From positions 28,350,857 to 28,414,856 of the forward strand of contig OX578155.1 in assembly GCA_951213105.1 (NCBI GenBank): 64,000 bases of DNA, given 5' to 3'. How positions within the stretch are numbered: position 1 is the first letter of the stretch; every line of letters starts with the position of its first letter. Position numbers and translations under genes: made by a program. Below the pieces are notes generated by a model, which saw nothing but the letters and a program-made list of their open reading frames with translations, was not told where the DNA came from and searched no databases. Shown here one piece after another: positions 11,840-59,310 of the stretch. This DNA is from Amaurobius ferox. Its lineage: Eukaryota > Arthropoda > Arachnida > Araneae > Amaurobiidae.

Positions 11840-13540
11840 AAATTATTTGCATCTGAAATGAGCTAGAAAGCAGTTTCACAAGCAGAAATGGTTTAGTTGT
11901 GCATAAGATTGTGTGTACAAGGGAGAAACTATTTGCACATGAAATGTGCCAGAAAGCATTTTAATACAAAGGTGATCTATATAAGCATCAAATTTTGCAC
12001 ACAGGTTAGAAATCATTTGCATGTAAAATGTGCTGGAAAGCATTTTCACACACAAAAAAAATATTTGTTCGCAAATTTGTACATACCGGTGGAAAACTAT
12101 TTACACATGATATGTGCCAGAAAGCATTTTCACAGAAAAGTACTTTAGCTATACATAAACTTCTGCACACAGGTGGAAAACCATTTGCATATGAAGTGTG
12201 CCTGAAAGCATTTTTACAGAAAAGTCAATTAGCTATGCACAAAACTCTGCCCACAGGTGAGAAACTACTTGCATGTAAAATGTGATAGAAATCATTTTCA
12301 AACAAAGGTGATCTAAAGTATAATATTTTTACCGACATAAGGGAACATTTACATGTGTTTTGTGTCAGAAAGCATTTTCTCTTAAAAATATTTTTGATAA
12401 GAACAAACTTGTTCAAACAGGTGAAAAACCATTTGCATGTGAAATGTACCAGAAAATATTTTCTCGAAAAGTGCTTTAAATGTACATGTGTTGTGTGCAC
12501 TCAACCAAGAAATCATTTGTATGTGAACTGTTACAGAATGTATTTACACGAAACAGTAATTGAAATCAACACAAATTTATGCACACGTGTAAGAAATAAT
12601 TGCATGTGCATTTTGTCAGAAAGCATTTACAGAAAATGTTATTTAGTTAAACACATGTCATTTAGTTAAACACATGTTATTTAGTTAAACGCATTGCATG
12701 TCAAGTGTGCCATAAATAATTTTCACACAAAAGCAACTTGGTTAAACACAACACAGGTGAGAAATTGTTTGCTTGTGAAATCTGCCAGAAAACATTTTCA
12801 CATAAAAGTGGTTTATACGCAAATTTAGGCATACAGATGTGAAACCATTTGCATGTGCAATGTGCCAGAAAATATTTTTACAAATATATGATCTAAATAA
12901 GCATAAATTTTTCACAAAGGGGAGAAAAGCATTTGGATGTGAAATGTGCCGGTTTGCATTTTCTCAAAAAACTAGTTTTGATATGCACAAACTTGGGCTC
13001 ATAGGTTATAAATCATTTGAATGTGACATGTGCCAGAAAGCATTTTCAAATAAAAGTAATTTATTCGAACACAAGCATGTGTACACAGGTTAATCACCAT
13101 TTCTACGTGAAATGGACCATAAATCTTATTCAATAAAAATTTATTTAGATATGCACAAATTTGTGCATGCAGATGAGAAACGATTTGCATGTATTATGTT
13201 CCAAAAAGCATTTTCAAATAAAAGTAATTTAGTTGAACACAAATGTAGACACACATGTGAGAAACTGTTCGCATGTTGAAGACCCAGACCGTCCGACTCG
13301 TCCTGAGGACTTAGAGTAACTAGTTGGACGGCCGGAAACTGTTCGCATGTGAAATGTGCCAGAAAGCATTTTCACTAAAATGTGATTTATTCAGGTTCTG
13401 TGCTCCTGTACCAATTTTACTTATCTGCAAGAAACTGCTTCAAAAACTGCATTTTCAGCTTAATTTGTGCCGCAGAGCATCAATTTTAAGATCAGCTGTA
13501 AAAAATCATGAAAATTGTACAAAAAAAGAAAAATCGTGAA
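11840..13540 (+). pseudogene. Decayed 3' fingers of array A
   Basis: After the TAG at 11837-11839 finger sequence continues with stops and frameshifts. Readable pieces include MCQKAFSQKSTLAIHK (about 12112-12160) and a three-finger piece at 12839-13093 with CAMCQKIF, CEMCRFAF and CDMCQKAF that ends at a TAA. The same broken fingers occur in the other copy (31325-32823), so the decay predates the duplication. One finger near 13260-13350 is split by a 58-bp retroposon in this copy only. After 13540 the sequence is AT-rich without fingers. Confidence 0.75.
13277..13334 (-). mobile_element. 58-bp solo SINE-tail retroposon
   Basis: The insertion is flanked by perfect 16-bp repeats GAAACTGTTCGCATGT (13261-13276 and 13335-13350). 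The other duplication copy has that 16-mer once and no insert (32739-32754), so this is a clean insertion after the duplication. On the minus strand it reads CGGCCGTCC at the 5' end and GGACGGTCTGGGTCTTCA at the 3' end. The arms GGCCGTCC and GGACGGTC pair, and an inner GTCC/GGAC hairpin sits between them. It resembles the last 60 nt of the window's SINEs without head or body. Confidence 0.85.
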
Positions 13541-14013
13541 TAAATAAAATAATTAAAATGTAAAATCAGAATCATAAGATTTTAATGATTTTTGACAAAC
13601 AGAATTATTGTTAATGCTTTAAGCACATTCCGGTTGTTCAGCTGGATGTTTATGAAATACCTTGTTTTCAGCAGCTTTTTCTTCTGTTCCACTTTGCAAT
13701 TTTTAGGTCTGCTATAGTTGGCTATGAAAATAATTTGCAAAATCAAATGGGTTAGGATATAATATGTTTCCTAGTTCATATGTGTGAACGATATGAAACT
13801 GAAATTTCAATTTAAAAGGATTTTTGTCTCATGAATTAGCATGATGTGTCACAAACTTTTCAGTTATAAAGTGGAGGGGGTGCAGAAAAATATATTTTTA
13901 AACTATTAGCAAGATATATGTAAGTAACACTTGTTTAAAATTTTTGCGTCTGGTTCAAAAGTATCTTATCGTAAACATCGTAGTTACAGTAACATGAGTT
14001 CTGAAAACAAATA

Positions 14014-14355: not shown

Positions 14356-14742
14356 TATTGATGTTGAGACCCAGACCGTCCGACCTACCAGAAAGGTGTA
14401 AGGTAACTGTTTGGACAGCTGGGAAGTGCCACCCAATTTAGACCAGAACCCAGTGGGGGAGGCATCCACAGGGACCGTACCCTCCTTCCCCTACCACCAA
14501 CCTCTCGGAAGGACTTACTGACCAACATGTTTAACGTGATCATGCTCCGCATGAACACGGTGGCAGTTGTGGCAGTTTGCAAATCCAGCTTGCAAACCAC
14601 CGGGCTACCACGCCCGAAATGTGCCAACAGCATGCGGTGTTTCCAGGTGGTTACCCACCTAAGTACTAACCGCTCCGATGCTGCTTGACTTCAGTGATCT
14701 AACGAGAACCGGTGCTTTCAGCATGGTAGGACCGTTGGCCAG
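14356..14742 (-). mobile_element. 5S-rRNA-headed chimeric SINE
   Basis: It is flanked by 14-bp target duplications ATTGCTGTTCCTGT (14342-14355 and 14743-14756). Read on the minus strand it starts with about 120 nt resembling 5S rRNA: GGCCAACGGTCCTACCATGC, then GGTTCTCGTTAGATCACTGA, then GGTTAGTACTTAGGTGGG. A short tRNA-SINE remnant follows (GGGCGTGGTAGCCCGG), then the common SINE body (GATCACGTTAAACATG, CCTCCCCCACTGGG, CTAAATTGGGTGGCAC) and the hairpin tail ending GGTCTGGGTCTCAAC. It is shared with copy B, so it inserted before the segmental duplication. It is non-coding and would depend on a LINE for movement. Confidence 0.85.
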
Positions 14743-14756
14743 ATTGCTGTTCCTGT

Positions 14757-16546
14757 GACATACCTTATATTTTCATATCCATATGGACAAAAATTAAACT
14801 TTTAAATGCAAAGTTTAAGCATGATGCATTTGCGTTATTCTAATCTAATTTCATTATTTAATAGCTCATATCAATTTATCATAGTATATGCTAAATTTGG
14901 TAGGAATCGGAAAAAAATCAAAAGGTAAAAAAGTACATAATCTTGTTCAAGGTATATCATATGGAGAATAAATTGTCTTTCTTTCCAGAATTTTTTTAAG
15001 TTGTGTGGTATACATCCAACATAGTCATCGAAGTTTTCCTACTAAATCATATATTTATTTCTCTTTTACGGGTAAAGTAAAACATTTCCATTCCATATAA
15101 CTAGAGATGTGCTACACAGATTCCATACCATAGATTTGCTTCGATTCACCTTCCCTGAGAATCCACCATCTCTAGTTAAATTATTCTGTAAAAATTCAAT
15201 GAAACATCCCCCAACACCAAGAAAAAAATATCGCCATCAAGCAAATGTATTGAATATGATGAAGACTGACCTGATGGATTTCTAATGAAGATTACACCTA
15301 ATTTATAGGGAGAAAATGTTACCCTTTTTTAAATTGGTGTGTATGATATTTAAATTTTTGAGGCATTTAAAAAAAATTGATTTAAAGTGGTTAAAGATAT
15401 CAAAAAACAAAAAAAAAATAAAAAAAAATCACCCTGATAGCAGAAATCAACCATTGCTCCTTGAGGTATGTGTTTTGTACACTTTCATTCTTTTAGGAAA
15501 AAATTCGGAGCAAGCGTCCCCTCTACAAATTCTGCAATTTTCCATTGCATATTTTCATTGTAGACTATTAAACAGATTTCTTCTTTCTTTTAGTAGAAAA
15601 TTTGCAGCTAACATCTATATTTTTGGTGACTTTTCATTGCATTTTAGGAGGGGGCGGGGGGCATCTATAAATTCTTCAGTACTATTGTATATATCAATAC
15701 TGCAGATTAAAACACCATGTTTGGAATGTGTCAATGAGGTAGAAATGAAAATCTTTGGTTAAAAAAATGAATACAACAAATATAATGTATATAATTTTGT
15801 TCTACATACATGATCTTGCTTCGAAAAAAAAATTGTAACATCCTAAGATTTCACAGGCTAAATAGTAATGTGGTTGGACTTCGTCAGCACGTAAAGAGAA
15901 TCTTCCCAAATCAGTTTTTTTTTGTATTTTTGAAAAATTAGAAGAAGAGCAATATTGTTTACACATTCATAGAATAGCTTACTTAGCAGAATTTGGTTTC
16001 AATTGGTCGAATGGTTTTGGAGAAAAACTGATACTAAAATTTCATCGTGAAAACTGCACACAATGCCAGAAAGATTTAAACACAAAATTTGGACATTCTT
16101 TTTACAAGCATATAAAAGGCTATCCTTATACAAAATTGAAACAAATTACTCTACGTCGCTTGGGTCCTAAATAAGCACTCACAGCTTATATAATATAAAT
16201 AACGTCACTCACTTAAACAGACTTTCGTTTAAAATGAAACAAAAGAAATTAAAGAACTTGTTTTCCCGATGAATTCTGAAAATTGTACAATGTAATATGA
16301 CAAGAGAATGTTTGCTCAAAATCTCCTGTTCTCCACAATTAAAAATAATAAAATTAAGCCGGGAATCTAGAGTTTAAGAAAATATTATAAACGTGCCCTC
16401 ATCTATTCTTTCCTCTATTACATGAAACAAAACAGAAAGAGTCGAAAGAAAGGATTTTGAATAATTCCGCCCCTTCCTTCAATACATTTAAGACTGTTTT
16501 TTCTCTTTATCTCTTTCAAGACTAGAGTTTGTGACACCATTTGCAG
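14757..16546. other. Non-coding DNA shared by both duplication copies
   Basis: Collinear with 34168-35946. No gene is seen. A 148-codon frame at 15316-15762 looks like AT-rich translation and its start codon is ATT in the other copy, so it is not treated as coding. Oligo-A and oligo-T tracts differ in length between copies. Confidence 0.6.
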
Positions 16547-16610
16547 AGAGACTCCGGCCGCCCAAATTGCTGCTCTCAGTCTTCGGATGAGTCGGTCGGC
16601 CTGGGCTTTC
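16547..16610 (+). mobile_element. 64-bp solo SINE-tail retroposon
   Basis: It lies between 14-bp repeats GACACCATTTGCAG (16533-16546 and 16611-16624). Copy B has a single ACACCATTTGCAGA at 35947-35960 with no insert. The element carries CCGGCCGCCC near its start and GGTCGGCCTGGGCTTTC at its end. The arms GGCCGCCC and GGTCGGCC pair in 7 of 8 positions, with an inner GTC-TTCG-GAT hairpin and a GCTC/GAGT stem. Confidence 0.85.
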
Positions 16611-17119
16611 GACACCATTTGCAGAAACTGGTGTTTATTTTGACTTGGTCAGAATGGAAGTGGAAGGAAAATGTTGTTTGTGTTGGGGATCTTCTAGGGT
16701 TTTAATGAGTTGACATATTATTTCTTGACATATAGTTTAACTTATTATTTATTTTAAAATCTTAAGATAAATAGCTAGTAAAGGTACTTTTACCAGCTGT
16801 AATTTTGCTCACAGTTCTCCAAACTTTCATATGATCTTATTTTATTTTTGATAGTTTGGAGTTATTTGAAAGTTTATTTGGTTGTTTGAAATTTGAAACT
16901 TTGAAATTTTGTTATTGAAATTTACTGCAGCGGTGCTGACTGGACAGATTCCATCAAAACCCCTGAAAGGAGCCAATATGGCCTCTGTATAAAATCACTG
17001 AATTTTTTATTTCATGAAAAGTGGAGTGTTTTTATGCATCCCACGGGATGTGTATATCAAAATATTATGTATCTATTTTCATTTTTTAGAGTTATTTCAC
17101 TTGGACGGTCTGGATCTCA

Positions 17120-17322
17120 ACATGTTATAATGCCCGACCACTCAATTTGCTGATCATGCCTTAGGGCGAGTCGATTGGTCTGGGTTTTCGACATATTACA
17201 ACGCGCCTCCCCCGCTGGGTTCCAGTCAAAATTGGGTGGCATTTCCTGGCCGTCCAAACAGTTACCTTACACCTTTCAGATAGGTCCGACGGTCTGGCTC
17301 TTAACAGTAACATATTCCAACG
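17120..17322 (+). mobile_element. Chain of a tail element and a truncated SINE sharing one target repeat
   Basis: Three versions of one target sequence occur: ACATGTTATAATG (17120-17132), ACATATTACAACG (17191-17203) and ACATATTCCAACG (17310-17322). Between the first two is a 58-bp tail element (17133-17190; GACCACTC pairs with GATTGGTC in 7 of 8). Between the last two is a 5'-truncated SINE (17204-17309) that starts in the body at CCTCCCCC and ends in the SINE tail. Immediately upstream (17100-17119) is a 20-nt remnant of another tail. The segmental duplication breaks inside the first element. Confidence 0.75.
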
Positions 17323-18522: not shown

Positions 18523-18654
18523 TTCGGACGTCCATTGTGCTGCTCATGTCTTCGGACAAGTCTGTCGTCCTGGGCTTTCGACACATCAGTCACTACCGGC
18601 CATCCAAATAGATGCTCAAGTCCACTGGATGAGTCGGACAGTCTGGGTTTTCAA
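18523..18654 (+). mobile_element. Two tandem solo tail elements
   Basis: The first element (about 18523-18581) ends GTCGTCCTGGGCTTTCGA; its arms are GGACG and CGTCC and its inner hairpin is TGTC-TTCG-GACA. The second (about 18596-18654) begins CGGCCATCC and ends GTCTGGGTTTTCAA, with inner GTCC/GGAT. Each is followed by CACATCAG (18582-18589 and 18655-18662), the same target that follows the next SINE in the chain. Confidence 0.7.
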
Positions 18655-18669
18655 CACATCAGTCCACTC

Positions 18670-19054
18670 GCCAACGGCCCTACCATGCTGAAAACACTGG
18701 TTCTCGTTAGATCACTGAAGTCAAGCAGCATTGGGCGCGGTTAGTACTTGGGTGGCTGAGCACCTGGGAACACCGTGTGCTATTAGCACATTTCGGGCGC
18801 GGTAGTCCGGGGTTTGCACGCTGGATTTGCACGCTGCCACAACTGCAGCCGTGTTGATGCGGAGTATGATCACGTTAAACATGTGGGTCCGTAAGTCCTT
18901 CTGAGAGGTTAGTGGTAGGGGAAGGAGGGTATGGCCCCTGTGAATGCCTCCCCCACTGGGTTCCGGTCTAAATTGGGTGGCACTTCCCGACCGTCCAAAC
19001 AGTTACCTTACACCTTTCTGTTAGGTCGGACGGTATGGGTCTCAGCAACAACAG
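18670..19054 (+). mobile_element. Full-length 5S-rRNA-headed chimeric SINE
   Basis: This is the best plus-strand copy. It begins exactly at GCCAACGGCCCTACCATGC, corresponding to the first base of mature 5S rRNA, and stays 5S-like for about 120 nt, including the internal promoter region (AAGCAGCAT, GGTTAGTACTTGGGTGG). From about 18796 there is a tRNA-SINE remnant (GGGCGCGGTAG) that has lost the B box. The common body follows (18850-18985), then the hairpin tail (GACCGTCC pairing with GGACGGTA) and CAACAACAG. Target duplications are CACATCAGTCCACTC (18655-18669) and CACATCAGCCACTC (19055-19068), differing by one base. Length 385 bp. Confidence 0.9.
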
Positions 19055-19062
19055 CACATCAG

Positions 19063-19121
19063 CCACTCATCCTGTTGCTCATACCCTAGGGTGAGTCGGG
19101 TGACCTGGGTCTTCAACACGT
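19063..19121 (+). mobile_element. Solo tail element at the end of the 18.5-kb chain
   Basis: It ends GACCTGGGTCTTCAACA. The inner hairpin ACCC-TA-GGGT is flanked by GCTC and GAGT, the same layout as other tail elements. The outer stem is poor here. It overlaps the 3' target repeat of the 5S SINE, so its exact 5' end is uncertain. Confidence 0.6.
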
Positions 19122-25028: not shown

Positions 25029-26507
25029 CGTGGTTTGAGTAACTCAGAAGAGAAGCCCGAACCACCCGAAGGTACACGGAAAAAGATGAACCGTCGTCGC
25101 GACCATAATCCAGCCGCCCTCAGCACATGCCCCCCAGTCCAGCGACCACCGGCGGAAGCACCACCGACAGAAGCCGACACCAGCGGGACAGAGCCGACGC
25201 CTCCAAGCCGGAACCCCCACCAGACACGCACCGACACCAAGCGCCGAGCAGGTCGCGGGGGACCAACACGAAAACACGACAAAAAGACCACCAGCCAAAC
25301 AAAACAGATCCTCATCCTCTAACTGGATTAACAAAAGCCAGGCCCCCTTGGCCGGTTACAAACAATACAATAAAATACAGTAAAACATGCACTTTAAATA
25401 CAAAATTCCCTAATCAGGAAAACAGAGCCAACAAAAAACATTTATTAAGCAATACAACAAAACATTGCAACTCCAGCCAACAAAAACACAATTCAAGCCA
25501 TCCAATAAAACTATATAAAAACAACAATTGCAAAACAGCAAGAAACCTATACTAAGCAGTTAGTCCGTAATCGACTTTAGAAGCCACAAAAGAAAGTTCT
25601 TTCATATAAACAGGGCAAGCGGCGTCATTGCACTTGTGATCCGTCTTAAATTTAGAGCCAAATTTTCCATTGTGCTTTTCACAATTTTTGCACTTTACCA
25701 TTTCTGTACAGTCAGTAGCTTTATGTTCTTCAGAACCACATTTGATACAAACAACTTTACCAGGGCAAAATTTTCCGATATGTCCATAATTCCAACACTT
25801 AAAGCAGACATAAGGCCGCAAGTGTTCTCTAAAATTCACTTTATACCACCCTAAACTGATCTTGCTCTTTTTAATTAACTTAGTAAAAGTCTCTGGATCT
25901 ACTTCTAGTATCCAATTTGTGCCTCCTCTACTTATAAAACTGTATTTTGCTTCTACTTTTGGAGGATCGTCGATTTCCTCATTCTGTTCTGTGATCCTCG
26001 CAACTAAGTCTTCTTTTGTGTATTCATCTTGGATATTATATAGTATCAATTGAGGCTTCTTCTTTTTGGGTTTACTTATTGTATAGTTGTTTAAAGCATC
26101 CTTGTCCTTAAACTCTTGGATAAGGACATCAAGGTCTTCACTTTTCGAGGTTTCTACCAATATGCCTCCCTTCCTAATCTTCTTCACCTTTTTTACACTA
26201 ATATTCAACATGGTTGGGTTCACCAGTCCCTGAACTTCTCTTCTTGTTGCTTCAGAGGATTGTTCCATTTTCGGCAATATTGAGACAACATGGGCACTTA
26301 GCACTTAGAGATCTTCCCCGTATTTTGGTTCCTGGGACAACTACTGTCCCTTTTTTTGGTTTATCTTGCTCAGCCAATTTCTGTGCATAGGAAGGAACAA
26401 CAGTCCTTTCTCTTTCCCCTCTTTTAGATTTCTCAACAGCAATTATTTTCTGTTGCTCTATAACAATCTTGATCAAATTACCAAGTTCTTCTCGTGGTTT
26501 GAGTAAC
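25029..26507 (-). mobile_element. Gag-only non-LTR retroelement with 15-bp target duplications
   Basis: Perfect repeats CGTGGTTTGAGTAAC at 25029-25043 and 26493-26507 flank a minus-strand insert of 1449 bp (25044-26492). It opens inside a gag frame (EELGNLIKIVIEQQ), so it is 5'-truncated. The gag stop is followed by only about 508 bp of G/T-rich 3' DNA. There is no room for the endonuclease/reverse-transcriptase ORF that normally follows and no poly-A tail. It is either an ORF2-deleted copy or a member of a gag-only lineage. Confidence 0.8.
25552..26304 (-). CDS. Gag-like nucleic-acid-binding protein (R1/Jockey-group ORF1)
   Basis: 250 codons. The C-terminal half has three cysteine-rich knuckles: CFKCWNYGHIGKFC, CIKCGSEEHKATDC and CKNC...DHKCNDAACPVY, the pattern of ORF1 of R1/Jockey-group non-LTR elements, which binds element RNA and escorts it to chromatin. 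The upstream part (VNPTMLNISVKKVKKIRKGG, then DPETFTKLIKKSKISLGW) fits the same family. The reading continues upstream in another frame to 26476 and beyond (KRGERERTVVPSYAQKLAEQ), so there is a frameshift near 26290 and ATG 26304 is not the original start. The protein is therefore N-terminally broken. No reverse transcriptase follows. Confidence 0.75.
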   Translation of the reverse strand: MLSAHVVSILPKMEQSSEATRREVQGLVNPTMLNISVKKVKKIRKGGILVETSKSEDLDVLIQEFKDKDALNNYTISKPKKKKPQLILYNIQDEYTKEDLVARITEQNEEIDDPPKVEAKYSFISRGGTNWILEVDPETFTKLIKKSKISLGWYKVNFREHLRPYVCFKCWNYGHIGKFCPGKVVCIKCGSEEHKATDCTEMVKCKNCEKHNGKFGSKFKTDHKCNDAACPVYMKELSFVASKVDYGLTA

Positions 26508-31324: not shown

Positions 31325-32823
31325 AAATTATTCACATCTGAAATGAGCCAGAAAGCATTTTCACAAACAGATATAGTTTAGTTGTGCATAAGCTTGTATG
31401 TACAAGGGAGAAACTATTTGCACATGAAATGTGCCAGAAAGCATTTTAATACAAAGGTGATCTATATAAGCATCAAATTTTGCACACAGGTTAGAAATCA
31501 TTTGCATGTAAAATGTGCTGGAAAGCATTTTCACACACAAAAAAAAATATTTGTTCGCAAATTTGTACATACCTGTGAAAAACTATTTACACATGATATG
31601 TGCCAGAAGGCATTTTCACAGAAAAGTACTTTAACTACATAAACTTCTGCACACAGGTGAAAAACCATTTGCATATGAAGTGTGCCTGAAAGCATTTTCA
31701 CAGAAAAGTCAATTAGCTATGCACAAAACTCTGCCCACAGGTGGGAAACTACTTGCATGTAAAATGTGATAGAAAGCATTTTTAAACAAAGGTGATATGA
31801 AGCATAATATTTTTACAGAGATAAGGGAACATTTACATGCGTTTTGTGTCAGAAAGCATTTTTTCATAAAAATATTTTTGATAAGAACAAATGTGTTCAA
31901 ATAAGTGAAGAACCATTTGCATGTGAAATGTGCCAGAAAATATTTTCTCGAAAAAATGCTTTAAATGTACATGTGTTGTGTGCACTCAACTAAGAAATCA
32001 TTTGTATGTGAACTGTTACAAAAAGTATTTACACGAAACAGTAATTGAGATTAACACAAATTTATGCACACGTGTAAGAAATAATTGCATGTGCATTTTG
32101 TCAGAAAGCATTTATAGAAAATGTTATTTAGTTAAATGCAACTATGTGCACATGAGTAAAAAACAATATATATGCATGTCAAGTGTGCCAGAAATTATTT
32201 TCACACAAAAGAAACTTGGTTAAACATGACACAGGTGAGAAACTGTTTGCTTGTGAAATTTGCCAGAAAACATTTTCACATAAAAGTAGTTTATACACAA
32301 ATTTAGGCATACTGATGTGAAACCATTTGCATGTGCAATGTGCCAGAAAATATTTTCACAAATATATGATCTAAATAAGCATAAATTTTTCACAAAGGGG
32401 AGAAAACAATTTGGATGTGAAATGTGCCAGTTTGCATTTTCTCAAAAAACTAATTTTGATATGCACAAACTTGTGCTCATAGGTTATAAATCATTTGAAT
32501 GTGACATGTGCCAGAAAGCATTTTCAAGTAAAAGTAATTTATTCGAACACAAGCATGTGTACACAGGTTAATCACCATTTCCATGTGAAATGGACCATAA
32601 AGCTTATTCACTAAAAATTTATTTAGATATGCACAAATTTGTGCATGCAGGTGAGAAACGATTTGCATGTATTATGTTCCAAAAAGCATTTTCAAATAAA
32701 AGTAATTTAGTTGAACACAAATGTAGACACACACGTGAGAAACTGTTCGCATGTGAAATGTGCCAGAAAGCATTTTCACTAAAATGTGATTTATTCAGGT
32801 TCTGTGCTCCTGTACCAATTTAA
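31325..32823 (+). pseudogene. Decayed 3' fingers of array B
   Basis: Same remnants as 11840-13540, including the three-finger piece at 32317-32571 (CAMCQKIFSQIYDLNKHK, CEMCQFAFSQ, CDMCQKAFSSK). The piece 32590-32823 carries [16 protein letters not shown] and is uninterrupted here, whereas in copy A the equivalent finger is split by the 58-bp retroposon. Confidence 0.75.
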
Positions 32824-33420
32824 CTTATCTGCAAGAAACTGCTTCAAAACTGCATTTTCAGCTTAATTTGTGCCGCAGAGCACCAATTTTAAGATCAGCT
32901 GTAAAAAATCATAAAAATTGTACAAAAAAAGAAAAATCGTGAATAAATAAAATAATTAAAATGTAAAATCAGAATCATAAAATTTTAATGATTTTTGACA
33001 AACAGAATTATTGTCAATGCTTTAAGCGCATTCCGGTTGTTCAGCTGGATGTTTATGAAAAACCTTGTTTTCTGCAGCTTTTTCTTTTGTTCCACTTTGC
33101 AATTTTTAGGTCTGCTATAGTTGGCTTTGACAATAATTTGCAAAATCAAATGGGTTAGGATATAAAATGTTTCCTAGTTCATATGTGTGAACGATATGAA
33201 ACTGAAATTTCAATTTAAAAGGATTTTTTTTTGTCTCATGAATTAGCGTGATGTGTCACAAACTTATCAGTTATAAAGTGGAGGGGGTGCAGAAAAATAT
33301 ATTTTTAAACTATTAGCAAGATATATGTAAGTAACACTTGTTTAAAATTTTTGCGTCTGGTTCAAAAGTATCTTATCATAAACATCGTAGTTACAGTAAC
33401 ATGAGTTCTGAAGACAAATA

Positions 33421-33759: not shown

Positions 33760-34153
33760 ATTGTTGATGTTGAGAACCAGACCGTCCGACCTACCAGAAA
33801 GGTGTAAGGTAACTGTTTGGACGGACGGGAAGTGCCACCCAATTTAGACCAGAACCCAGTGGGGGAGGCATCCACAGGGACCGTACCCTCCTTCCCCTAC
33901 CACCAACCTCTCGAAAGGACTTGCGGACTGACATGTTTAACGTGATCGTGCACCGCATGAACACGGCAGCAGTTGTGGCAGCGTGCAAATCAAATCCATA
34001 TCGCAAACCACCGGGCTACCTCGCCCGAAATGTGCCAACAGCACGCGGTGTTTCCAGGTGGTCACCCACCCAAGTACTAACCGCACCGATGCTGCTTGAC
34101 TTGAGTGATCTAACGAGAACCGGTGTTTTCAGCATGGTAGGGCCGTTGGCCAG
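33760..34153 (-). mobile_element. 5S-rRNA-headed chimeric SINE, copy B orthologue
   Basis: Same insertion as 14356-14742: target repeats ATTGCTGTTCCT (33748-33759) and ATTGCTGTTCCTGT (34154-34167). The head is 5S-like (GGTTAGTACTTGGGTGGG on the minus strand), followed by tRNA remnant, body and tail. Divergence between the two copies gives the clock for the segmental duplication. Confidence 0.85.
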
Positions 34154-34167
34154 ATTGCTGTTCCTGT

Positions 34168-36454
34168 GACATACCTCATATTTTCATATCCATATGGACA
34201 AAAATTACACTTTTAAATGCAAAGTTTAAGCATGATGCATTTGTGTTATTCTAGTCTAACTTCATTATTTAATAGCTCATGTCAATTTATCATAGTATAT
34301 GCTAAATTTGGTAGGAATCGGAAAAAAATCAAAAGGTAAAAAAGTACATAATCTTGTTCAAGGTATATCATATGGAGAATAAATTGTCTTTCTTTCCAGA
34401 ATTTTTTTAAGTTGTGTGGTATACATCCAACATAGTCATCGAAGTTTTCCTACTAAATCATATATTTATTTCTCTTTTACGGGTAAAGTAAAACATTTCC
34501 ATTCCATATAACTAGAGATGTGCTACACAGATTCCATACCATAGATTTGCTTCGATTCACCTTCCCTGAGAACCCACCATTTCTTGTTAAATTATTCTGT
34601 AAAAATTCCATGAAACATCCCCTAACACCAAGAAAAAACTTTCGACTTAAAGTAAATGTATTGAATATGATGAAGACTGATATGATGGATTTCTAATGAA
34701 GATTCACCTAATTTATAGGGAGAAAATTTTACCCTTTTTTAAATTGGTGTGTATGATGTTTAAATTTCTGAGGCATTTAAAAAAAATTGATTTTAGAAAG
34801 TGATTAAAGATATCAAAAAACAAAATAAAAAAATCGCCCTGATAGCAGAAATCAACCATTGCTCGTTGAGGTATGTGTTTTGTACACTTTCATTCTTTTA
34901 GGGAAAAATTTTGAGCAAGCGTCCCCTCTACAAATTCCGCAATTTTCCATTGCATTTTTTCATTGCAGACAAATAAGCTGATTTCTTCTTTCTTTTAGTA
35001 GAAAATTTGCAGCTAACATCTATATTTTTGGTGACTTTCCATTGCATTTTAGGAGGGGGCGGGGGGCATCTATAAATTCTTCAGTACTATTGTATATATC
35101 AATACTGCAGATGAAAATATCATGTTTGGGATGTGTCAATGAGGTAGAAATGAAAATCTTTGGTTAAAAAAATGAATACAGTAAATATAATGTATATAAT
35201 TTTGTTCTACATACATGATCTTGCTTCAAAAAAAAATTGTAACACCCTAAGATTTCACAGGCTAAATAGTAATGTGGTTGGACATCGTCAGTATGTAAAG
35301 AGGATCTTCCCAAATCAGTTTTTTTTTTTTGTATTTTTGAAAGACTAGAAGAAGAGCAACATTGTTTACACATTCATAGAGTAGCTTACTTAACAAAATT
35401 TTAGTTTCAATTGGTCGAATGGTTTTGGAGAAATTGATAATAAAATTTCATAGTGAAAACTGCACATGATGCCAGAAAGATTTAAACACAAAATTTGACA
35501 TTCTTTTTACAAGCATATAAAAGGCTATCCTTATACAAAATTAAAACAAATTTCTCTACGTCGCTTGGGTTCTAAATAAGCACTCACAGCTTATATAATA
35601 TAGATAATGTCACTCACTTGAACAGACTTTCGTTTAAAATAAAACAAAAGAAATTAAAGAACTTGTTCTGCCGATGAATTCAGAAAATTGTACAATGTAA
35701 TATGACAAGATAATGCTTGCTCAAAATCTCCTGTTCTCCACAATTAAAAATAATAAGATTAAGTTGGGAATCTAGAGCTTATGAAAATATTATAAACATG
35801 CCCTCATCTATTCTTTCCTCTATTACGTGAAAAAAACAGAAAGAGTTGAAAGAAAGGATTTTGAATAACCTTTGAATAACGCCCCTTCCTTCAATACATT
35901 TAAGACTGTTTTTTTCTCTTTTTATCTTTCAAGACTAGAGTTCGTTACACCATTTGCAGAAACTGGTGTTTATTTTGACTTGGTCGGAATGGAAGTGGAA
36001 AGAAAATGTTGTTTGTGTTGGGGATCTTTTAGGGTTCTAATGAGTTGACATATTATTTCTTGACATATAGTTTAACTTATTATTTATTTTAAAATCTTAA
36101 GATAAATAGCTAGTAAAGGTACTTTTACCAGCTGTAATTTTGCTCACAGTTCTCCAAACTTTCATATGATGTTATTTTATTTTTGATAGTTTGGAGTTAT
36201 TTGAAAGTTTATTTGGTTGTTTGAAATTTGAAACTTTGAAATTTTGTTATTGAAATTTACTGCAGCGTTGCTGACTGGACAAATTCCAGCAGAACCCATG
36301 AAAGGAGCCAATATGGCCTCTTTATGAAATCACTGAATTTTTTATTTCATGAAAATTGGAGTGTTTTTATGCATCCCACGGGATGTGTATATCAAAATTT
36401 TATGTATCTATTTTCATTTTTTAGAGTTATTTCACTTGGACGGTCTGGGTCTCA
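34168..36454. other. Non-coding DNA of copy B
   Basis: Collinear with 14757-17119 of copy A; no gene. The 148-codon frame of copy A is not conserved here. Confidence 0.6.
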
Positions 36455-36506
36455 ACATATTATAATGCCCGGCCACTGAATTTGCTGCTCATGCCTTAGG
36501 GCGAGT

Positions 36507-37804: not shown

Positions 37805-38167
37805 AAGTAGCTGTCATGTTGAAGACCCAGACCATCCGACTCGTCCAAGTAGCGGTCATGTTGTTGTTGTTGTTGAGACCCAGACCGTCCGACCTACCAG
37901 AAAGGTGTAAGGTAACTGTTTGGACGGCCGGGAAGTGCCACTCAATTTAGACCGGAACCCAGTGGGGGAGGCATCCACAGGGACCGTACCCTCCTTCCCC
38001 TACCACCAACCTCTCGGAAGGACTTACGGACCCACATGTTTAACGTGATCGTACTCCGCGTGAACACGGCGGCAGTTTTGGCAGTGGCTGGAATCGAACC
38101 CGGGCCTACCAAGTGCAACTCCAGCGCGCTAACCAATGGGCTACCGCGCCCGGAAGTAGCGGTCATG
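37805..38167 (-). mobile_element. Chain of a 28-bp tail and a tRNA-headed SINE on one target
   Basis: The target AAGTAGCKGTCATG occurs three times: 37805-37818 (one mismatch), 37847-37860 and 38154-38167. Between the first two is a 28-bp truncated tail (37819-37846; 3' arm GGATGGTC). Between the last two is a full SINE (37861-38153). Its tRNA-derived head (minus strand) has GGTAGCCCATTGGTTAGCGC as A-box region and GGGTTCGATTCC as B box. Body and hairpin tail are as in the 5S-headed copies, with a (CAA)5 terminus. Confidence 0.9.
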
Positions 38168-46599: not shown

Positions 46600-47347
46600 G
46601 TGAGACGCCGACCGACGAAATCCTAAACATGTTCCATGGGCGACATATCCAGTGAATAGGCAGGCCAAGGAAGAAGATGTATCTGTTGTACTGAAAAGAT
46701 GTCTTGAACATTTCTAGCAACAAGTGCACGGCCATTGTCCTTTTGAAATACAGCTCCAGGAATGAATTGAAGGAAGGGTACGACTTCAAGCTCCAGAACT
46801 TCTCTGATGTACCGGTTGCTGTTGAGATTACCCACAATTCTTAGCAGCTGAGATCCAAAACACCCAATGGTGACTCAGACCATCAAGCTTGGCGTTCGTC
46901 CACTATGACGCTGGATAATGCACTCTGGGAGGTGGTGTTCACCGCTATAGTGTCTAACGTGGATGCGGCCATCACTGTACCCCACATTAAAGCGGTATTC
47001 GTCGGAAAAGACGACTACAAGACAACCAGTCGCCATGCCAGTGTCTATGTTGTTGAGCCTATTGTAGGTGGTTTTGCGTAGAGGAATCCTGTACAAAGGA
47101 ATTCTTTCAGACAGTCCACAGTGCAGCAGATGCTGACGAATTGTTAGAACAGGCAATGACACACCTGTAGTAGTGCTCCAAAGTTCTGCCAACTGTCAAG
47201 ATGAAGTTGCGCTGTCCATAACTGACATGTGGATGATTCGTCTATCATCCCGTGCTGACGCAACATTTCGTCGACCACTGCAAGATTTGCAACTCGTCCA
47301 GTTCTATTTAGTCCACTGTTTCCGCACTCGCATGACCGGCCGGCCAC
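46600..47347 (-). pseudogene. Tc1-type transposase, broken
   Basis: Successive frames on the minus strand: an N-terminal helix-turn-helix part (GRVANLAVVDEMLRQHG), then RQHLLHCGLSERIPLYRIPL, VVFSDEYRFNVGYSDGRIHV (first Asp), PSLMVWGAIGY, VGNLNSNRYIREVLELEVVP, FQKDNGRALVARN (second Asp) and LPWPAYSLDMSPMEHVWD (catalytic Glu). All three catalytic positions survive but the frame is broken at least twice, and NGRAL replaces the usual NARPH. It is a different lineage from the Tc1 copies at 24 and 37 kb. Confidence 0.8.
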
Positions 47348-47396
47348 TCAAATGGCTACTGTAAACCTTTGGGTCAGTCGAGTGGTCTGTCTTCAA
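47338..47396 (+). mobile_element. Solo tail element inside Tc1
   Basis: Target repeats CACTCGCATGACC (47325-47337) and CACTAGCATCACC (47397-47409) differ at 2 of 13. The element starts GGCCGGCCACTC and ends GAGTGGTCTGTCTTCAA. The arms GGCCACTC and GAGTGGTC pair along all 8 positions (one G-U), a different sequence from the GTCC/GGAC arms of the 13277 copy. Confidence 0.7.
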
Positions 47397-48043
47397 CACT
47401 AGCATCACCGTAGCATTGCCCTCCCTACGAGCTGCTATTGCAGGATATGAAAAACTCCCTTCAAGCCGATCATGCGTCCCCGTTCAAACTCCGTAACTTG
47501 CTCATATGGCGCCCTCTGCCGTCGTAGAGGCATTGTGACTTCTCATGAAACGTTTACCGCTGGCAGACAACCATAGACTATTTTCAACGTCCCGCTACGT
47601 TTCTCCAATTATACGACTACATCAGCAGTTTAGAGGGCGCTGCTCAGCCCACGCAAGCGCGGTGCCTCTGAAACTCTAATCATTTTCATAGCACACCCTA
47701 ATTTGTATTTTCTGTAAGTTTCAGCTCAATCTCGTGACTCCTTCATGTTGTTGCAGTTTTTACAAACAAGGCTTTAGTATATATACAATTTAAAAAGTTC
47801 TAATTCTAATCACACATCCTCATGCTAAATTAAATAGAAAGAATATATTTTAAAATTTTGTATAATATTTTGCTTTCAAATTGTTTCGTCTGACTTATTA
47901 AATGAATTAAATTATCAAAAGAAGTTTATTGCTGAACATCATTTTATTTTATAATATTGTAATTTAGAGATTGACTGCTGAAACAGAAGAAATTGCACTG
48001 TAATGTAATTCTATAGAAACACATAATGCACATGCACAATCTT

Positions 48044-48550
48044 CTATGTGCCTATTGCCTGAGATATATGAGATAAACACTTCTTCATAGTATAAACATC
48101 GGGTTGAAGATCAGGAGAATAGAGTGGATGTTCTATCACTTTAATGTTTATTTGTTCAAGAAATTCGACTGTCATTCTTGCTGAATGAGAAGATGCATTA
48201 CCATAGTGAAGCATAAGTCCCCTAACATTCACTTCCTGAAGAATTTCTGGAAAACACTTAGTGACGTACCAGTTAGCTGTAACTGTCTTCTGTCCCTCTA
48301 GCTTTATGACTTTGACCAGACCTGTACATCTAAAGAACACTGCGTACACTACTTTTTTCTTTGCTCGTTGTCTTTTCACCATTGTTGGTTTGGAGTCATC
48401 TTCAACGACCCATACTTTACTTTCTTGACGTGTTGGAACGTCAAAAAACGGTATGTACGTTTCATCACCAGTTATGATTTTAGAATTAATGCGATGTCCA
48501 CCATCATTGAGTAATTTTAGGGTTTCTTTACTGATTCTGGCATGCTCCAT
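48044..48550 (-). pseudogene. Mariner-type transposase, 168-codon fragment
   Basis: The open minus-strand frame has the mariner catalytic core: IITGDETYIPFFDVPTRQES (first Asp), KKKVVYAVFFRCTGLV, LMLHYGNASSHSARMTVEFL and EHPLYSPDLQP (third Asp of the DD34D triad). The second Asp, normally in HxDNASSH, is Gly (HYGNASSH), so it cannot be catalytic. About half the usual length of around 345 residues; the N-terminal DNA-binding half is missing. 47776-48043 has no gene. Confidence 0.85.
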
Positions 48551-50036: not shown

Positions 50037-52815
50037 GGCTAGACCAGGGGTCGGCAACCTATTGAAACGGAAGAGCCAAAAGTTGCAATTTACAAAATTT
50101 CCCAATTTTTAAAGAGCCACTAAAAATTTTCGTTTCAATATTACAGTATTTGCTTATATATATTGGATTTTGATTTAAAATAAACGGCTTTAAATACGTA
50201 ATAATATTTATTCATATAAAAACACAAATATAGATAGTTACATCAATGGGAGCATTGGCTTTGCATGCCTTTTGAAAGTTTGATTAAATCTGGCTTATAA
50301 CTTGTTATTTTAAGTTTCAAGCACGACTCTAGATTTTTATTTGTTAGTTGACTTCTAACTTTACTTTTTATTATATTCATGCAAGAGAACGCTTGCTCGC
50401 ACGAATATGTCGACTCGAAGATCGCCAGCACTCCATATGCCAACTTCTTCACCTCACTGTAGCATTCTGGAAGACTATTCCATGCGCCGAATATGAGGGC
50501 CTCAACTCTAGGAATTTCTTTTAGAGCTGTCCACTTGTGCTGCGCGATATGCATGCATTTCTGGATCCCCAACTCTTCCAACTGGCTCTTGAGTTCTGTG
50601 AACTTGCCACTCCACAAGTCTTTCCTTTTCAAATCTAGCAATTGCGTTTGGAGCGATCCAGCGTCAATTCCAAATGGCTCAATGTTGATCTCATTTGCAT
50701 TTGTGTTGAGAGGATTTACTATGAACGCGAGAGTACTTTTGTTTGTTTTGAATTGGTCGAATCTCTCAGCGAATCCATCCTTCATGTTTTTTAAAGCTAG
50801 GCTGAAGTAATTCGTGTCAATAGTTTCATTGGTCTCATCGCGATATTGCTTCAGATTTTTAAAATGAAGTAATTTACCGCTTCCCATGTTTCAACAAAAA
50901 GAAGTAATTTTTTTTTCGAAACAAACTACTTCAAGCAAGGCGTAGGCTGGGTTGCCCTTTCCTTGCGGTTTTAGATTTAGTTCATTTAGTTTCATTGTGG
51001 TATCTACCAAGAAGTTGAATTTCTGCAGCCATTTGTCTTCTTCCAATTCGGGATGGTCAATGCTTTTTTCATTGAGGAATATTTTTATTTCACTCAAGCA
51101 CAAAGCAAAACGTTGCAATACGTTACCTCTGGAAAGCCATCGCACTTTATTGTGCAGAAGTAGGTCAGAAAACTGGCTATCTATTTCTGCAAGGAAATCT
51201 TTAAACTGGCGATGGTAGAGTGTTTTTGCCAAGATGCTGTTAATAATCTTAATTACCAAGTTCATGACCTCAACTATTTCGGCCGGAAATGCTTGGGCAC
51301 AAAGCGCTTCTTGATGAATTACGCAGTGAAACGTTAGAATTTAGTGGTTTATTTTTTCTGAAGAATTGATGTTACCCCTCTATATATTCCTGTCATACTT
51401 CTGGCTCCATCAGTTGCTATAGAGACGATTTTATTTATATCGATTCCATTGTCTTCCAGGCATTTTTGCACAGCATTTGCTGTATCTTATCCACGAGTTT
51501 GCCCTGAGAGCGGTAGCAATCCTAGCAGTTCTTCTTTTGGACCTTGGGACGACATATACCTGACGCAAAGGGTAACTTGTGCCGTGTCTTTTATGTCGCA
51601 AGACTCATCTATAGCAAGTGATAAGGCAGAAGCCAGTTGAATGTCTTCCACTTGCATATGTGTTACGTTTGAAGACATTTTAGCAGTTCTGTTTTAGCAG
51701 ATAATGGCAAATCTTTGATTTTTTTTCATGATTTCTGCTTTGTTTTTAAAATCACGAAACAGTTCTCCAGATGCACGTATAAAACAATCTTTGACGTACT
51801 CACCATCTGTGAATGGTTTTCCTCTTTTTGCAATTTCTAATGATACTGCAAAGTTTGCCAGATTTACATTATTGGAAGGTTGCGCCCAGTTACTTAGCAT
51901 GGAACTTGACTGTTGTTGTTTTTTTGGAGCTCTTCAACAGCTTTTTTTCGTGCGTCACCGGTTGGATATTTACCAGCAAACTGGGTATGTTTTGTAGTGA
52001 AGTGTCTCTCCAAATTTGACTTCTTATTGTGTGCGAGTGTTTCGTCGGCAAATGAGACAAGTCGGAAGGCCATCTGTGTTGCATATGAATGCAAACAACT
52101 CCGTCCAATCCTGATTGAATTCTCGGTTTTCTTCTTCAGTTCTTCTCTTTCCTTTACCAGATGCCATGATGGCGCGGAGCTGAAAAAATGACTTTTTAAA
52201 TTTTTGCTTAGCTATCTAAAACGGCAAACAATTTATTTACCATTATTACTTCGTTAGCACGATCCTCATATATGTAATTCAATTCTGTTACTGATTTTAT
52301 TATATTATACGCGTACATACATTTAAGAAGATAATTCGCATCTAAATCGTATTCTTCTTGAAACAACAAGCGAATAGACACGCAGAAACCGCAAGCGATT
52401 AAATTAACACACATGCAACGTAACGTCGACCGCGATATCCGAGGATGACTGACTGACAACACGTCTAGAGCCTAGACGTGTTGTCTAAACTCTAGACGGT
52501 GGCTGTTTGGGTGAGACGGAAATGAAATTCAATTGGCTGAAAGATAAACATGGTCACGGAGTCTCATCTCTAAGAACAAAACAATAGTTCAAATTTATCT
52601 CATTACGGTCATGTTAAGCGTAGCGATTTGTAATTAGCGATTATGAAAATAGAAGCTATTGAGAAATTAGGTACTTAAAAATATATTTTCTTATTTTTTA
52701 AGGGTTTTGATAATAAAATATTAATTTTTTCGTATGGAACTGGAGAGCCGCAACCTTACATCAAAAGAGCCACATGCGGCTCGCGAGCCGCAGGTTGCCG
52801 ACCCCTGGGCTAGAC
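50037..52815 (-). mobile_element. Complete hAT transposon, Buster-type
   Basis: Perfect 8-bp target duplication GGCTAGAC at 50037-50044 and 52808-52815. The element (50045-52807, 2763 bp) has perfect 16-bp inverted ends CAGGGGTCGGCAACCT. The duplication has TA at its centre (GGC-TA-GAC), matching the nnnTAnnn preference reported for the Buster branch of hAT elements. It encodes a decayed transposase on the minus strand. Flanks give the exact pre-insertion site. Confidence 0.95.
50243..52167 (-). pseudogene. hAT transposase (ZBED5/GTF2IRD2-like), broken
   Basis: From ATG 52167 (MASGKGKRRTEEENREFNQD) a BED-type finger is readable (CLIC, then KSNLERHFTTKH) with a frameshift between its halves. 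Further parts in several frames: [39 protein letters not shown] (first catalytic Asp), VSIATDGARSMTGIYRG (second Asp), [17 protein letters not shown] and the C-terminal hAT dimerisation block FESTYSCEQAFSCMNIIKSK (catalytic Glu) ending near QCSH. The longest single frame is 50243-50887 (214 codons). At least four stops or frameshifts separate the pieces. The catalytic residues are still visible but no full protein can be made. Confidence 0.85.
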
Positions 52816-58374: not shown

Positions 58375-59310
58375 CGGGAAGTTAGCGCGCGAGAATTGCA
58401 CTCGGTAGGCCTGGGTTCGATTCCCGCCACTGATGCGGAGTACGATCACCTTAAACATATGGGTCGATAATTCCTTCCGAGAGGTTGGTGGCAGGGAAAG
58501 GAGGGTACGGTCTCTGTGGATGCCTCCCCCACTGGGTCCTGGTCCAAATTGGGTGAATAAAAAGGTTATGGAGATTGTCGCGGAGGGCGCGGTAGCCCAG
58601 TGGTTAGCGTGCGGGAATTTCACTCGGTAGGCCCGGGTTCGATTCCCTCCACTGACAAAACTGCTGCCGTGTTCACGCGGAGTACGATCACGTTAAACAT
58701 GTGGGTCCGTAAGTCCTTCCGAGAGGTTGGTGGTAGAGGAAGGAGGGTACGCACCCTGTGGATGACTTTCCCACTGGGTTCCGGTCTAAATTGGGTGAAT
58801 AAAAAGAAGGTTATGGAGATTGTCGCGGAGGGCGCGGTAGCCCAGTGGTTGGCGCGCGGGAATTGCACTCGGTAGGCTAGGGTTCGATTGCCGCCACTGC
58901 CAAAACTGCTGCCATTTTCACGCGGAGTACGATCACGTTAAACATGTGGATCCGTAAGTCCTTCCGAGAGGTTGTTGGTAGAGGAAGGAGGGTACGGACC
59001 CTGTGGATGCCTCCCCTACTGGGTTCCGGTCTAAATTGGGTGAATAAAAAGAAGGTTATGGAGATTGTCGCGGAGGGCGCGGTAGCCCAGTGGTTAGCGC
59101 GCGGGATTTGCACTAGGTAGGTCCGGGTTCGATTCCCGCCACTGCCAAAACTGCCGCCGTGTTCAGGCGGAGTACGATCACGTTAAACATGCGGGACCGT
59201 AAGTCCTTCCGAGAGGTTGGTGGTAGGGGAAGGAGGGTACGGTCCCTGTGGATGCCTCCCCCACTGAGTTCCTGTCTAAATTGGGTGGCACTTCCTGGTA
59301 GGTCGTTCCT
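58375..59310 (+). repeat. Tandem array of four tRNA-headed SINE units
   Basis: The head GGGCGCGGTAGCCCAG starts at 58585, 58830 and 59075 (period 245 bp); a first unit lacking the beginning of its head starts near 58375. Each unit has the A-box region (GTAGCCCAGTGGTTAGCG), the B box (GGGTTCGATTCC) and the body. Units 1-3 do not end in the usual hairpin tail but in AATAAAAAG, GGTTATGGAGATTGTCGCGG, leading straight into the next head. The last unit runs on into GGCACTTCCTGGTAGGTCG. No target repeats separate units, so this looks like satellite-style amplification. Confidence 0.85.

Follow-up and report, generated by a model that had tools for sequence, protein, structure and literature searches.

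The rodent ID/BC1 element, at about 75 bp among the shortest SINEs, has an internal pol III promoter and an A-tail. In the accessible part of PMC3747384, truncated LINE members range from 100 to 1,000 bp, and SINE/LINE pairs with a common tail carry hairpins whose stems show compensatory changes. The accessible part of PMC5322556 describes tailless retropseudogenes, from which the 3' end is missing, and many copies of Bov-B are shorter than 1 kb according to the portion available of PMC13295347. Here we compare with these systems a 58-bp insert found in a 64,000-nucleotide stretch of Amaurobius ferox DNA, the whole of which is called the window below.

The insert occupies positions 13277-13334 and is bounded by perfect 16-bp repeats, GAAACTGTTCGCATGT, at 13261-13276 and 13335-13350. 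It lies in copy A of a duplicated region, and copy B has a single copy of the repeat, at 32739-32754, with no insert. Copy A (12501-13900) and copy B (32001-33350) have the same base at 1238 of their 1303 ungapped positions (95.0%). At the insert site their alignment has a gap of exactly 74 bp, equal to the insert plus one repeat (58 + 16), and the other gaps of 5 bp or more are one of 7 bp and two, of 15 and 43 bp, at or near the alignment ends. The sequence-only reading had claimed such a filled and an empty site, and from them the mobility of a retroposed unit consisting of a 3' tail alone; the alignment bears out both. Random drawing from the window, with a spacer of 56-66 bp, produced a perfect repeat of at least 16 bp once and of at least 10 bp seven times in 200,000 draws, a control that counted real repeats of the window as well. 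In the sense orientation the boundary is ambiguous by one base, and 58 nt with a 16-bp duplication and 59 nt with a 15-bp duplication fit equally well. The insert introduces a stop into the finger frame of copy A right after CRHTCEKLFAC, where copy B continues. The frame of copy B has a stop a little upstream (HTG*), and the same bases are present in copy A; thus, the end of the finger gene was already damaged.

A 5S-headed SINE on the plus strand at 18674-19052 (5S match at 18670-18788) terminates in a tail homologous to the insert, followed by (AAC)n, which makes minus the sense strand of the insert. On that strand the insert, classed from the A/B alignment and the genomic loci as a hairpin-only retroposon of subfamily I, runs from CGGCCGTCC to GGGTCTTCA and reads 5'-CGGCCGTCC...GGACGGTCTGGGTCTTCA-3', followed by a target starting ACA. 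It follows that the constant end beside TGT is the 3' priming end and that the 5' end is the one that varies slightly; the duplication at 13261-13276 (ACATGCGAACAGTTTC on the minus strand) lies on the 3' side of the unit and that at 13335-13350 on its 5' side.

The window contains further elements with the same tail. Two 5S-headed SINEs on the minus strand, at 14358-14735 and, on the copy B side, at 33763-34146, were recognized by their 5S match and by tail comparison, and the same SINE body and tail, with a homologous hairpin, are also found under a head judged by eye to be tRNA-like (37866-38084, minus strand). An older hairpin copy of 63 nt (16548-16610, plus strand) lies between copies of GACACCATTTGCAGA at 16533-16547 and 16611-16625, and two old copies on the plus strand, at 17134-17193 and 47340-47398, have no clear target duplication that we could find. 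Another repeat, at 17102-17122 and 36437-36457, ends in ...ACTTGGACGGTCTGGGTCTCAACA (ATCTCAACA at 17102) without the 5' strand of the hairpin, and is perhaps a further element with the same 3' end. At 58435-59287 a 245-bp unit is repeated in tandem about 3.5 times; this array contains the SINE body and is a SINE-derived satellite.

In the insert itself no SINE head derived from tRNA, 5S or 7SL RNA with an internal pol III promoter was found; what it has in common with SINEs is a 3' tail shared with a partner LINE. Rfam placed no family on the insert in a search of 13200-13420, with merely a chance-level match beside it, and ARAGORN in its bacterial setting reported no tRNA in the whole window, a weak test that missed the tRNA-like SINE heads as well. 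A pol III head was accordingly set aside, as was a hammerhead or other ribozyme: the string CTGAGGA on the plus strand is suggestive, but it is antisense, and Rfam gave no match over the insert. We also rejected the idea that the unit is merely a SINE tail, since among the fetched loci the hairpin subtype of the insert occurs on no SINE body and is carried by LINE-like bodies. SINE-type tails occur as solo copies too, and three of the five seen share the same boundary. The earlier description of the insert as a SINE-like 3' tail without head or body thus stands as regards a tail-only unit; the tail is, however, also that of a LINE, with which the SINEs share it.

The host assembly that we searched comprises 3.56 Gb in 276 contigs. 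A similarity search with the insert and its flanks gave 963 candidates, of which 40 were scored, with 43 matches listed. In all 39 other loci among the matches listed, which were picked by similarity, the constant end lies beside TGT/ACA. One of these loci repeats another (L035 and L026), and abutting target duplications were recognized by a script rule in 37 of the 38 distinct similarity-picked loci, the exception being L046. The exact sense 24-mer of the 3' end, GTCGGACGGTCTGGGTCTTCAACA, has 11,459 copies in the genome, and its reversed control has none. This query requires an intact 3' end, so that 3'-truncated copies are invisible to it, and LINE families with a different 3' end (TCTTCTACA, TCTTCACAC) fall outside the sample that it defines.

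As an unselected sample we took the first 50 places of the 24-mer in chromosome order, all on C1 below 15.6 Mb (L048-L097), ignoring length, and removed three duplicates. Units of 57-64 nt with target duplications make up 28 of the remaining 47 loci, and four others (L051, L068, L052 and L080, scored at 67-125 nt) are the unit blurred by filler, a repeat or an internal change. Seven loci carry inserts of 28-53 nt, one (L072) has a 396-nt LINE-like piece of 3' UTR with a perfect 14-bp duplication, and seven (L066, L073, L075, L079, L093, L094 and L096) have no duplication under the strict rule. Among all 88 distinct loci with the exact 24-mer, partly picked by similarity, 78 have a duplication in a scan whose start at ACA was imposed by the query and the script. 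The inserts in 63 of these 78 measure 57-65 nt, with 30 at 59 nt, the commonest length, and 16 at 63-64 nt, and the duplication is 14 or 15 bp long in 58. The eight longer than 65 nt were inspected and consist of nested pairs (L043, L045), units with filler (L028, L037, L051, L080), one with an AC repeat (L068) and an internally changed copy (L052). The lengths therefore form a sharp peak at 59 and 63-64 nt and no smooth truncation series, in agreement with the earlier proposal of a discrete short unit.

This unit is a hairpin, with an outer stem CCCGGCCGUCC...GGACGG-U-CUGGG and two inner stems, ACUC/GAGU and GUCC/GGAC. We aligned 21 non-redundant units, solo copies and a SINE tail (one of 22, L108:80-128, was left out as short), and the alignment supports an outer stem of 11 pairs and an inner stem of 4+4 pairs. 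In it 94.5% of the cells are paired, compared with 25-50% in slid controls, and 42 cells are compensatory, compared with 14.4 (s.d. 3.7) after shuffling, none of 500 shuffles being as high. Eight pairs show changes in both strands, a number reached in 7 of 500 shuffles, the number of further pair types is not unusual (73 of 500), and RNAalifold returned nearly the same fold. Taken singly, the window copy has an unremarkable fold energy (z -1.53). These results support a conserved hairpin, backed by covariation, and the LINE and SINE tails adopt the same shape. The outer stem begins at position 60 from the 3' end (..TTCA), and the 5' ends of solo copies lie either one base inside it (59 nt) or 3-4 nt before it (63-64 nt).

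Among 18 loci chosen for unusual hairpin variants, two of which (L098 and L099) have the same flanks, 10 run upstream into a LINE-like 3' UTR of one of two types. One LINE locus, L117 (which includes L102), has an open reading frame with a Pfam RNase_H match (6.1e-15), then the 3' UTR and then the hairpin. L101 shares the end of the reading frame, the 3' UTR and the hairpin with it at 98.9%, and L115 shares the 3' UTR and the hairpin at 98.8%. The unit corresponds exactly to the terminal 59-64 nt of LINE 3' UTRs of the host genome. The sequences closest to the RNase H of L117 are six proteins of Araneus ventricosus (41-53%), and the C-terminal part of its open frame bears a tentative resemblance to I-group LINEs. 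Within the fetched pieces no open frame of at least 90 aa has an RT-like ADD motif, the RNase_H match being seen without RT, and the link between the LINE enzyme and the hairpin therefore rests on the shared tail and target. A pattern of one 3' UTR type plus the hairpin (TAACTN{3,4}TTCCCGGCCGTCCAANTAG) occurs at 564 places, and of the solo subfamilies only I and II were also seen in LINE-bodied form. Given that LINE bodies also end in the hairpins of these two subfamilies, and that SINE tails yield solo copies, we favour LINE RNA as the template and consider it somewhat probable that the insert copies no more of an RNase H-bearing LINE than its 3'-terminal hairpin.

Other coding remnants are present in the window. 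A 250-aa open frame with zinc knuckles on the minus strand at 25552-26304 is LINE ORF1-like, its Pfam zf-CCHC match lying just under the cut-off, and a search for its relatives found none. Open frames on the same strand at 48044-48550 and 50243-51265 resemble, by eye, remnants of mariner and hAT transposases.

The units sit at TTAC^ACA-like targets with duplications of 14-15 bp, the end beside ACA being constant and the opposite end lying at the base of the hairpin. The target consensus from 78 loci is A, A/G, N, T/A, N, T/C, T, A/T, C^ACA(C/T), with 9.9 bits of information, the ACA having been imposed by the query and the script; 9.9 bits correspond to about 7.7 million such sites. The features read directly from the sequences are a LINE-type insertion, a constant 3' end, an ACA target and a 5' end at the hairpin. 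From them we infer a pathway in which the LINE endonuclease would nick after TGT, the resulting TGT-3'OH would pair with the terminal ACA of the RNA, and a reverse transcriptase tethered by the hairpin would copy the hairpin and then release, leaving the 5' end there; alternatively, the template may be a fragment of LINE RNA protected up to the hairpin. Some observations count against release. The 5' ends form two peaks and not one, and release after the hairpin would be expected in every lineage, whereas one subfamily, AATTAGATACTC, is mostly LINE-bodied.

The figures by subfamily are as follows. Subfamily I, that of the window copy, is represented by GGCCGTCCAACTAGTTACTC at 1,952 places, of which 19 match on into the LINE 3' UTR (AACTTTCCTTCCCGGCC...); the one of these 19 that we read (L119) has 98 nt between its duplications, with 5 nt of filler. 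On C1:0-93.6 Mb, 26 of the 55 places of subfamily I reach TTCCC (at least 62 nt), 29 fall short and none overlaps the LINE pattern. The group of subfamilies II, III and V (GGCCGTCCAAATAGNTGCTCTTAGTCC) has 4,579 places; 24 of the first 100 reach TTCCC and one, of subfamily II, overlaps the LINE pattern, with no LINE-bodied version of III or V among those 100 by a pattern that represents one LINE 3' UTR type. The subfamily AATTAGATACTC has 792 places. Of its 16 on C1:0-93.6 Mb, 14 reach TTCCC, seven overlap the LINE pattern and three more (L101, L102 and L115) were read as LINE, giving a LINE body in at least 10 of the 16. The ratio of solo to LINE-bodied copies is therefore about 100:1 in subfamily I and reversed in AATTAGATACTC, the LINE-bodied share of about 1% being a lower estimate because exact matching and the use of one 3' UTR type undercount.

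Given the reversal of the ratio in one subfamily, and with no LINE-bodied III or V seen among the 100 places, a separate short RNA has to be weighed. Under this alternative, a doubtful one in our judgement, the unit would be an independent minimal retroposon whose template is an RNA of about 64 nt from its own source gene or genes, with only the enzyme coming from the LINE, and different lineages of this RNA would account for the solo subfamilies. The ratio near 100:1 in two subfamily groups speaks for it, as do the 5' ends that cluster at CCTTCCC/CTTCCC (63-64 nt). The commonest 5' end, however, is at 59 and not 64, one base within the stem; neither Rfam over the insert nor ARAGORN, weak as it is here, gave a promoter head; and LINE versions bear the hairpins of subfamilies I and II, while SINE tails yield solo copies. 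We regard as equally tentative its fullest form, a free-standing hairpin of about 60 nt without promoter, head or body, copied by a LINE from its own short RNA, outnumbering LINE-bodied copies by about 100:1 within its subfamilies, and making or reusing landing sites where SINEs and more hairpins pile up on one target.

It is improbable that the family stems from ordinary 5' truncation, in which LINE or SINE copies of widely varying length would arise and 58 bp would be one draw. Some ordinary truncation does happen, because seven of the 47 unselected copies measure 28-53 nt and L119 has 98 nt, and the 396-nt piece at L072 is a further length. Target duplications and a consistent 3' priming end, as in truncated LINEs, are found at 78 of the 88 loci. 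The breakpoints, however, are not spread over a range of lengths: 28 of the 47 unselected loci lie at 57-64 nt and just one holds a longer LINE fragment, about 1% of the subfamily I places continue into the 3' UTR (a lower estimate, from exact matching), and the usual range of truncated LINEs in the accessible part of PMC3747384 is 100-1,000 bp. It is very improbable that the units moved as DNA, whether through segmental duplication or as a small DNA transposon whose inverted repeat would be the outer stem. Four pairs of loci were indeed copied as DNA (L066/L067, L082/L086, L083/L087 and L026/L035), and seven unit pairs 82 bp apart within 180 kb (C1:64398092-64580565) are probably a segmental duplication. 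Dozens of loci, however, differ in their 14-15 bp duplications and have flanks that are unrelated; on the ACA side the inverted repeat does not reach the end of the unit, and the ends are asymmetric, one constant at ACA and one variable.

Chains of insertions at a single target are frequent. When the similarity-picked and unselected loci with duplications are taken together, the target 12-mer recurs within 700 bp in 28 of 74, compared with 0-0.05 per locus for shuffled words. In 19 of these 28 a hairpin-bearing unit lies between the target copies, the diverged hairpins of L031, L081 and L089 having been judged by eye, and L055 and L056 forming one chain. Nine of the 19 units are spaced at +66 to +76, four lie upstream, four are at +299 to +307 (tRNA-like SINE) and two at +399 (5S SINE). 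L022 has unit-like spacing, but was rejected as a local repeat of the target with no unit, and the remaining eight loci are simple repeats or ambiguous. The window has such a chain at 18581-19068, in which repeat, hairpin unit, repeat, 5S SINE and repeat follow head to tail: an older hairpin copy (18596-18656, plus strand) lies between repeats ACACATCAGTC starting at 18581 and 18654, the next link is the 5S-headed SINE at 18674-19052 with its homologous hairpin and (AAC)n end, and CACATCAGCCACTC follows at 19055-19068. We read the chains most simply as repeated use of a good target, in which the left copy would remain intact and the right copy would start TTCA^ACA, and a single multi-step event is possible; we do not claim a dedicated stacking mechanism, because at a large copy number favoured sites may be reused by chance.

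These findings suggest that the smallest RNA needed by this type of LINE consists of a hairpin plus 7 nt and ACA. Natural insertions with exact ends, of which there are thousands, would provide a direct record of where reverse transcription started and stopped, a record usually blurred by ragged truncation, and the hairpin-only and LINE-bodied subfamilies make the determination of the 5' end of LINE copies testable. The same-site chains, present in 19 of 74 loci, pose another puzzle.

In the open-access literature, at the level of titles and the beginnings of abstracts and with subscription journals mostly outside that scope, no retroposon family consisting of a LINE tail alone is described. 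The claim that the unit belongs to no described class is uncontradicted within the same limits. LINE copies 5'-truncated during target-primed reverse transcription are alike in their intact 3' end, target duplication and LINE 3' UTR, but they have varied breakpoints at 100-1,000 bp in the accessible part of PMC3747384, whereas the hairpin units are concentrated at 59-64 nt. Tailless retropseudogenes, as far as the available part of PMC5322556 describes them, are likewise very short retroposed pieces of RNA with target duplications and defined breakpoints; they miss the 3' end, whereas in the hairpin unit the 3' end is complete and constant and the 5' part is missing. The SIDER and TSIDER elements of trypanosomatids, short, non-autonomous and related to the ingi clade, have a 79-bp signature common to trypanosomatid retroposons (PMC2323293, PMC3820030, in the parts available), and are set apart by their description there as short degenerate retroposons and not as hairpin-only units. 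Neither the internal pol III promoter nor the A-tail of rodent ID/BC1 was found in the hairpin unit. There is also a likeness to the 'stringent' tail-sharing SINEs, such as those of the eel LINE/SINE pair and the maize and sorghum SINEs that accompany L1, which have a stem-loop tail in common with a LINE (PMC3747384, accessible part). The tail of the window unit is likewise common to 5S-headed and tRNA-like-headed SINEs in the same window, but, in contrast to the stringent-type SINEs, the hairpin unit has neither head nor body, and the tail alone is mobile.
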